Shown: positions 37,593 through 39,666 of the stretch, piece after piece | How positions within the stretch are numbered: the first letter of the stretch is position 1 | Layout: every line of letters starts with the position of its first letter | From: Pyrenula massariospora | Lineage: Eukaryota > Ascomycota > Eurotiomycetes > Pyrenulales > Pyrenulaceae | Direction of reading: 5' to 3' | Length of the DNA: 64,000 nucleotides | Assembly (NCBI GenBank): GCA_021030905.1 | Contig: JAGFMI010000005.1 | Location: 434,001-498,000 of the forward strand | The notes under the pieces: model-generated | What the model was told of the DNA's origin: nothing | Database searches by the model: none | The model's input: the letters and a program-made list of their open reading frames with translations, nothing else | Position numbers and translations under genes: made by a program

Positions 37593-38649
<1,057 letters not shown>

Positions 38650-38656
38650 TGTAAAG

Positions 38657-38874
38657 CTAGTTCAGATTAGATATTATGTTGGCAGGGAGGAAGGCATGAT
38701 CCTTTCGCTGGTATTATCCAGATCAAGTTGAAACCGTATAATCTCAGAACGCTTTGGTATCATGGAAGTTGCCCATCTCTCTTCGAGAACTAGCTGCGAG
38801 AGGTGGATGGGCACGAAGCTTCCTGATGTGGAGGCAAAGCGAACACCGGTTCATGCGTGATTTTTGTAAAATAC
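38657..38874 (-). other. proximal 5'-UTR intron of THI4 (218 nt) containing the TPP aptamer
   Basis: Read on the minus strand. Donor GATCAAG|GTATTT at 38874-38873; acceptor TCTAATCTGAACTAG at 38658-38657, eight bases before the THI4 ATG and with a branch-like CTAAT. A second, distal donor GAG|GTACAT lies at 38939-38938; with the same acceptor it gives a 283-nt intron. The aptamer lies wholly inside both introns. Boundaries come from consensus only. Confidence 0.6.
38694..38856 (-). promoter_or_regulatory. TPP riboswitch aptamer (THI element) in the THI4 leader
   Basis: Sequence on the minus strand contains the nearly invariant TPP-binding blocks: TTCTGAGATTATACGG, then AACTTGATCTGG, then ATAATACCAGCGAAAGGA. 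Helices I can pair: P1 GCATGA (38856-38851) with TCATGC (38699-38694); P2 AACCG (38851-38847) with CGGTT (38736-38732); P3 CGCTTTG (38841-38835) with CAAAGCG (38756-38750). P3 is extended by a second stem, TGCCCATC/GATGGGCA, at 38813-38806 and 38777-38770, the long P3 typical of filamentous fungi. Thiamine pyrophosphate should bind and alter splicing of the surrounding leader intron. Confidence 0.93.
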
Positions 38875-38926
38875 CTTGATCATTCTGACAATCTGCCAAA
38901 CGAAATGGATGCATCCTTTCCATCAT
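38744..38926 (-). other. upstream ORF in the THI4 leader
   Basis: Two adjacent ATGs at 38926 and 38923 open a frame of 60 codons (MMERMHPFRLADCQN...) that runs into the aptamer and stops at 38744 in unspliced RNA. If the proximal donor at 38874 is used, the frame crosses the junction and ends inside the THI4 coding region near 38607 in another frame. If the distal donor at 38939 is used, the whole uORF is removed. It fits a repressive leader peptide role, not a functional protein. Confidence 0.55.
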
Positions 38927-38962
38927 TAGCGAGATGTACCTCAATTCGGTCGTGTTTGTTTT

Positions 38963-39023
38963 CTGTGTAGCAGTTAGTATTCTTGTAGATAAGTGGAGAG
39001 ACCGAGGGGCAAGCGATAGATAC
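38963..39023 (-). other. first 5'-UTR intron of THI4 (61 nt)
   Basis: Minus strand: donor TTG|GTATCT at 39023-39022; branch ATACTAAC and acceptor TGCTACACAG ending at 38963. The branch/acceptor pair is near-perfect fungal consensus, which also indicates that transcription starts upstream of 39024. Confidence 0.6.
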
Positions 39024-39024
39024 C

Positions 39025-39666
39025 AACGGCTGTGAGTTTCACGGAAGATATAGCGAAGGCAATTGATGAGAGAGAATTGAGTGAGGAATTTGGGAAGACG
39101 AAAACTCGAGTCAAATATCACAGCAGATGAGGGGCAGCAGACTTTTGGCGGGCGATGCGGGGCAGAGACGGTGGGGTGAAGCAACAGCCGGGGAAAAGCG
39201 GATGGAGAATGATCAGCATGAAATGCATGTCAACGCCGGTAGACGCTTCTCATTCGACAAAAAGCTAGAGAGTTTGCGACAGTGTCGCTTAAAGCTACAC
39301 AATCAAAGTCAATTGCGCTAGAATAGACCGACGATCCGGACGAGACACCCAGCCAACGTACTGAAGAGTTGCACAATCCTTCAGCAAAGCTCAAAGAATT
39401 TGAGTGGCCGTCGATCCGCACTGTCATACTATCAACAGACATCGTACGTACATCATTCGTAAAGAAACAGTCGCTGTAGACTTGACGAAATACCCATAAT
39501 AGTAAGCCGAATAATCCAATGGTCGACGCTTCTCGTGCTTCCAACCGAAAACCATGTCGACGGCGGTTGTGATTGAAGACCCGGCTGGCCGCTGCTCGCC
39601 AAACTGTACATCACCAGTCTCATGTAGGTCCAAGAACCAAACACCTGAACATTTGCGGAAGCCGGG
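39025..39666. promoter_or_regulatory. THI4 promoter region and 3' flank of the small basic gene
   Basis: About 640 bases with no convincing gene; several overlapping minus frames (39230-39644) have no motifs. Confidence 0.4.

Follow-up and report, generated by a model that had tools for sequence, protein, structure and literature searches.

The THI4 locus

The 64,000-nt stretch of DNA analysed here (the window, whose positions are used throughout) carries on its minus strand a THI4 gene, encoding thiazole synthase, together with its leader. Coding exon 1 (38295..38649, ATG at 38649) matches Pfam Thi4, and coding exon 2 (37593..38242) matches both Pfam Thi4 and NCBIfam TIGR00292, in agreement with a previous sequence-only reading of this DNA, which had named the gene THI4. 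The exons are separated by a 52-nt intron (38243..38294), and the joined two-exon protein aligns through the junction with 3jsk (CyPBP37; E 3.4e-128), the N. crassa homologue of THI4 (PMC11900860), as well as with other thiazole synthases. The donor of the coding intron, CAG/GTGAAG, is weak, scoring 3.7 bits in the donor matrix described below, and the hexamer GTACAT, identical to that of the distal leader donor, also begins at the sixth base of this intron (38289). Four further Thi4 matches in the genome score 22.8-29 bits, one of them above the Pfam cut-off of 26.2, and are not comparable with the gene described here, whose two exons score 267 and 76 bits. A scan of viral and genome contigs for THI4 relatives with the exon-2 protein (214 aa) gave 6 and 59 pattern matches, respectively, none of which was confirmed.

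On the minus strand, the leader contains in order a distal 5' splice site (D1), a proximal 5' splice site (D2), a TPP aptamer, a candidate branch site CTAAT (38666..38670), an acceptor AG and the THI4 ATG. The putative upstream leader, taken as exon 1 (38940..39218), lacks ATG over its 279 nt.

TPP aptamer

By Rfam match and helix pairing, the THI4 leader carries a complete TPP aptamer, P1 to P5 (38694..38856, minus strand), which would be expected to bind TPP. P1 (GCAUGA, 38856-38851 / UCAUGC, 38699-38694) forms six of six pairs, P2 (ACCG/CGGU) four of four and P3 (CGCUUUG/CAAAGCG) seven of seven, and the P3 arm (38750..38841) is lengthened by an 8-bp stem (UGCCCAUC/GAUGGGCA; 38813-38806 / 38777-38770). 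P4 (CUU/AAG) contributes three pairs and P5 (CUGG/CCAG) four, both within 38702..38727, and the J3-2 junction CUGAGA (38742..38747) is intact in the sequence. All helices are pairable in sequence, with P2 and P4 weak in ligand-free folds. The presence of every aptamer block in the minus-strand leader and the extended P3, both asserted in the sequence-only reading, are thus confirmed.

That reading also proposed a covariance search with the Rfam TPP family as a check, and here the outcome was divided. A search of the window at the gathering level (54.3) returned no TPP match, whereas under permissive settings RF00059 matched 38683..38787 on the minus strand with 37.4 bits (E 1e-5 in a 601-base search; E 1.5e-4 in a whole-genome search); the match is present but stays under the gathering score. 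In the Rfam alignment, P1 and P2 have their 5' strands placed within the extended P3 arm; moving the 5' half of the aptamer further upstream (38856-38694) yields the full helices. Fungal TPP elements with an extended P3 have been described as missed by RF00059 (PMC11683625). The low score of the THI4 element fits its long P3 arm, a published cause of such misses (PMC11683625). Neither of the two TPP matches in the whole-genome search exceeded the gathering cut-off, so that both are overlooked when the Rfam TPP model is applied to this genome at that score.

The second of these matches (35.4 bits) lies on the minus strand at 2337-2247 of locus L013 (G000:C24:38500-44500), by a sodium:solute-symporter-like gene (Pfam SSF E 3e-4, under the cut-off). 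An exact 12-nt complement of the 3' flank of this second aptamer is found approximately 380 nt upstream (L013 2646-2635, minus strand) and contains the RGCGGYRRY alpha motif of the published Type II switches. Judged by these features, the second match resembles a putative Type II switch, which the THI4 element does not. In two NMT1/THI5-like loci of 3.4-3.6 kb (L011, G000:C1:1296400-1299800; L012, C28:133200-136800), no TPP match was detected at E values up to 1.

Splice sites of the leader intron

D1 (GAG/GTACAT, 38934..38942, intron from 38939) and D2 (AAG/GTATTT, 38869..38877, intron from 38874) both lie upstream of the aptamer, exactly where they had been proposed. They share the acceptor AG at 38657..38658 (ACTAG, ending at 38657), which is the sole AG between the aptamer end and the THI4 ATG and lies seven bases before the latter. 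The resulting introns of 283 nt (D1) and 218 nt (D2) differ by the 65 nt (38875..38939) that the sequence-only reading had assigned to an alternative segment. The putative branch sequence CTAAT recurs in L044, an inferred native intron, where it occupies the branch position.

A donor matrix was built from 16 inferred introns, comprising the THI4 coding intron and 15 others that homology predicts in genes for small GTPases and ubiquitin-conjugating enzymes. Twenty junctions were fetched, 18 of which had at least one frame-keeping solution, and 15 were kept by eye; L042, L050 and L053 were left out as doubtful and L035 and L038 for having no solution, and some of the kept introns (L036, L040, L049) have no branch motif of the searched form. 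D2 ranks top of the 14 leader GTs (39190-38857) with 7.8 bits and D1 second with 6.7 bits; 0.95% and 2.2%, respectively, of the minus-strand GTs in the window (n=3457) score as high. GTACAT is itself the inferred native donor of a ubiquitin-conjugating-enzyme gene in the same genome (L052), and when this intron is removed from the matrix D1 drops to 6.0 bits and to third place of 14, after 39142 (6.5). By these scores D1 and D2 resemble inferred native donors, and both are predicted to be used. An unsupervised donor matrix, started from 125 branch/acceptor anchors in 264 kb (the window and L014-L033, both strands), did not converge and gave no clear donor consensus.

Upstream start codons

After joining from D1, the nearest ATG before the THI4 start is the one at 39219, whereas joining from D2 adds four (38926, 38923, 38914 and 38883). 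Three of these share a frame and the fourth lies in a second one. The two frames, both out of register with THI4, terminate 43 and 62 nt downstream of the A of the THI4 ATG. A favourable start-codon context has A at -3 and G at +4; three of the four ATGs in the 65-nt segment have A at -3, and one of these also has G at +4. A 279-nt leader with no ATG arises in 1.1% of dinucleotide shuffles, a share that climbs to 17-43% for transcript starts assumed at or after 39100. Among shuffles of the 65-nt segment, 25% contain four ATGs and 19% have two trapped frames. The start-codon layout fits a regulatory role of the segment but is weak evidence by itself, because shuffles often match it.

Pairing between the alternative exon and the aptamer

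The 65-nt alternative exon also contains a strand that could pair with the aptamer. The seven bases with which it ends before D2, GATCAAG (38881-38875), can pair without mismatch to CUUGAUC (38727-38721), the strand running from P4 into P5; a 7-nt perfect complement to the 5' strand of P4/P5 occurs near 15 of 3456 minus-strand GTs in the window. In ligand-free folds of four lengths, this anti-helix has a mean pair probability of 0.89-0.98 and P1, P4 and P5 have 0.00-0.04; P3 (0.87-0.95) and its 8-bp stem (0.98) persist in these four folds as well as in three folds of the truncated aptamer. In the minimum-energy fold of the 283-nt intron, the inter-donor segment pairs with 38727-38682 through 39 base pairs. 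The duplex of the 65-nt segment with the 3' half of the aptamer reaches -35.2 vs -19.8 +/- 3.6 kcal/mol, with 2 of 2000 shuffles as stable; for the 283-nt intron as a whole, 5 of 200 shuffles fold as well and the other 195 less well. Taken by itself, the 20-nt donor stretch does not stand out in energy (577 of 2000 shuffles; 390 of 5000 against the P4/P5 strand alone). Shuffled segments fairly often disrupt the aptamer too: of 300, 18 do so as fully as the native one, 37 leave P5 at 0.05 or less, and 63 reach an ensemble energy as low as native.

Constraining the aptamer to form places the ensemble 7.5-8.4 kcal/mol above the ligand-free ensemble at the four lengths and opens the exon side of D2, where the unpaired probability of the last exon G rises from 0.01-0.02 to 0.82-0.84. 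Pairing at U+2 of D2 increases, its opening dropping from 0.41 to 0.23, and the mean opening of D2 rises only from 0.34 to 0.50. Cut free of the upstream segment, the aptamer forms P1 (0.56-0.99) and P5 (0.53-0.79) in three truncations, with P2 (0.01-0.14) and P4 (0.09-0.16) low; a 5' end at 38880 already lowers P1 to 0.10.

Among ten transcript 3' ends that were folded, the anti-helix weakens only at 38706 (0.62) and 38701 (0.40), where P5 and P4 have just been made and P5 reaches 0.36 and 0.49, respectively; three bases later the anti-helix is back to 0.96. A decision during transcription is suggested, because P4/P5 rivals the anti-helix only at these two ends. For NMT1, TPP binding in the course of transcription has been put forward in a modelling study cited in a review (PMC7404189). 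We tentatively propose, while considering it somewhat less probable than not, that the alternative exon as a whole acts as the anti-aptamer, with most of its 65 nt in a 39-bp imperfect duplex with P5, P4, the 3' strand of P1 and beyond, that the decision is kinetic and that the exon serves as a two-frame start-codon trap.

Proposed mechanism and alternatives

Computation places the aptamer, both donors, the common acceptor, the complementarity and the upstream start codons within one leader. On this basis the locus very probably represents a TPP riboswitch of a fungal THI4 gene that acts by 5' splice-site choice, with TPP binding, two splice forms and repression as its predicted consequences. 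At low TPP, CUUGAUC and the rest of the aptamer 3' half would pair with the 65-nt inter-donor segment and cover the exon side of the proximal donor at 38874, so that the spliceosome would take the distal donor at 38939; 283 nt would be removed, leaving a leader free of upstream start codons from which THI4 could be made. With TPP bound, P1, P4 and P5 would close, the inter-donor segment would be released and the proximal donor used. The 65 nt would then be kept in the mRNA, and translation from the retained start codons, in two frames that read past the THI4 start, would suppress THI4. The donor choice by TPP that had been read from the layout is therefore supported as a prediction by the published order of elements, the P4/P5 complement at D2 and the confinement of start codons to the 65 bases, the last two being features that the sequence-only reading had not mentioned.

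Alternatively, TPP might act mainly by preventing the leader intron from being spliced out, the mode described for thiA of Aspergillus oryzae (PMC10226581), with no choice between donors. Retention of the full 283-nt intron would bring eight upstream start codons, all eight ORFs of which end before the THI4 ATG, and D1 opening under the aptamer constraint falls from 0.46-0.53 to 0.22-0.33, being lower at all four lengths. However, retention needs no second donor, and the position of the high-scoring D2 is precisely one at which its exon side can be masked by P4/P5; we consider this alternative unlikely. Slightly less probable still is that a different GT serves as the upstream donor, for instance TTG/GTATCT at 39023, which also precedes the aptamer, would use the common acceptor and would lengthen the alternative segment from 65 to 149 nt. 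The non-converged matrix speaks against D1, because it ranks 39023 (7.6) above both D1 (3.2) and D2 (6.2), with 38889 at 7.0. In the homology-based matrix, by contrast, 39023 scores 3.3 bits vs 6.7 for D1 and 7.8 for D2, and 20% of the minus-strand GTs in the window score equally well. That the aptamer is a decayed relic in a constitutively spliced intron, as its sub-gathering Rfam score and the weak P2 and P4 of the truncated folds might suggest, is highly improbable, given that P1, P2, P3, P5 and CUGAGA are intact in sequence, that a long P3 explains low scores in print (PMC11683625) and that the other TPP match of this genome has a complementary element upstream of it.

Splice-site choice between D1 and D2 remains the preferred reading, and it provides base-level predictions for a fungal THI4 switch, namely the bases masking D2, the start codons that would silence the gene and the transcript length at which the decision may fall.

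Comparison with known fungal switches

Type I fungal TPP riboswitches, with Neurospora crassa NMT1 as the model, are described as residing in an intron of the 5'UTR, in THI4, NMT1 or transporter genes; one donor precedes and the other follows the upstream start codon(s), a single acceptor is used, and P4/P5 is complementary to sequence around the proximal donor (PMC5882874). The locus described here shares the aptamer in a THI4 leader intron, which is predicted to be spliced, the two donors flanking upstream start codons and the single acceptor before the coding exon. The P4/P5 complementarity to the proximal-donor region is likewise shared, being exact over 7 nt here and not exceptional by energy alone. 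In the general Type I model as outlined in that source, a short uORF lies between the donors, whereas the uORFs predicted here cross the splice junction and pass the THI4 start (PMC5882874). Furthermore, the predicted ligand-free pairing spans most of the 65-nt segment and reaches past P1, unlike in the Type I model as outlined there. Two features may be unusual, namely how long the anti-aptamer is and that the uORFs overlap the main start.

For N. crassa THI4, thiamine is reported to alter splicing, with excess TPP giving a longer mRNA according to earlier work cited there, and for the THI4 riboswitch of Botrytis cinerea an inhibitor alters splicing through an alternative 5' splice site (PMC11900860). 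By description, these leaders resemble the present locus in the splicing change predicted for it, and the same paper, from 2025, calls the THI4 mechanism not fully studied (PMC11900860). A. oryzae thiA, a thiamine gene repressed by thiamine, likewise has a TPP element in a leader intron, yet inhibited splicing is described there, in contrast to the donor choice proposed here (PMC10226581).

Type II switches carry the aptamer in a long (650-900 nt) internal intron of urea-transporter family genes such as N. crassa NCU01977 (PMC5882874), whereas the element described here lies in a THI4 leader intron of 283 or 218 nt. They are similar in that splicing control relies on base-pairing between one aptamer strand and sequence close to the donors, but use the P1' strand and a distant alpha element (PMC5882874). 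The THI4 leader therefore has the published Type I arrangement, a kind of switch already known from other fungi, and the earlier interpretation is supported because the locus fits each testable Type I point of that description (PMC5882874).
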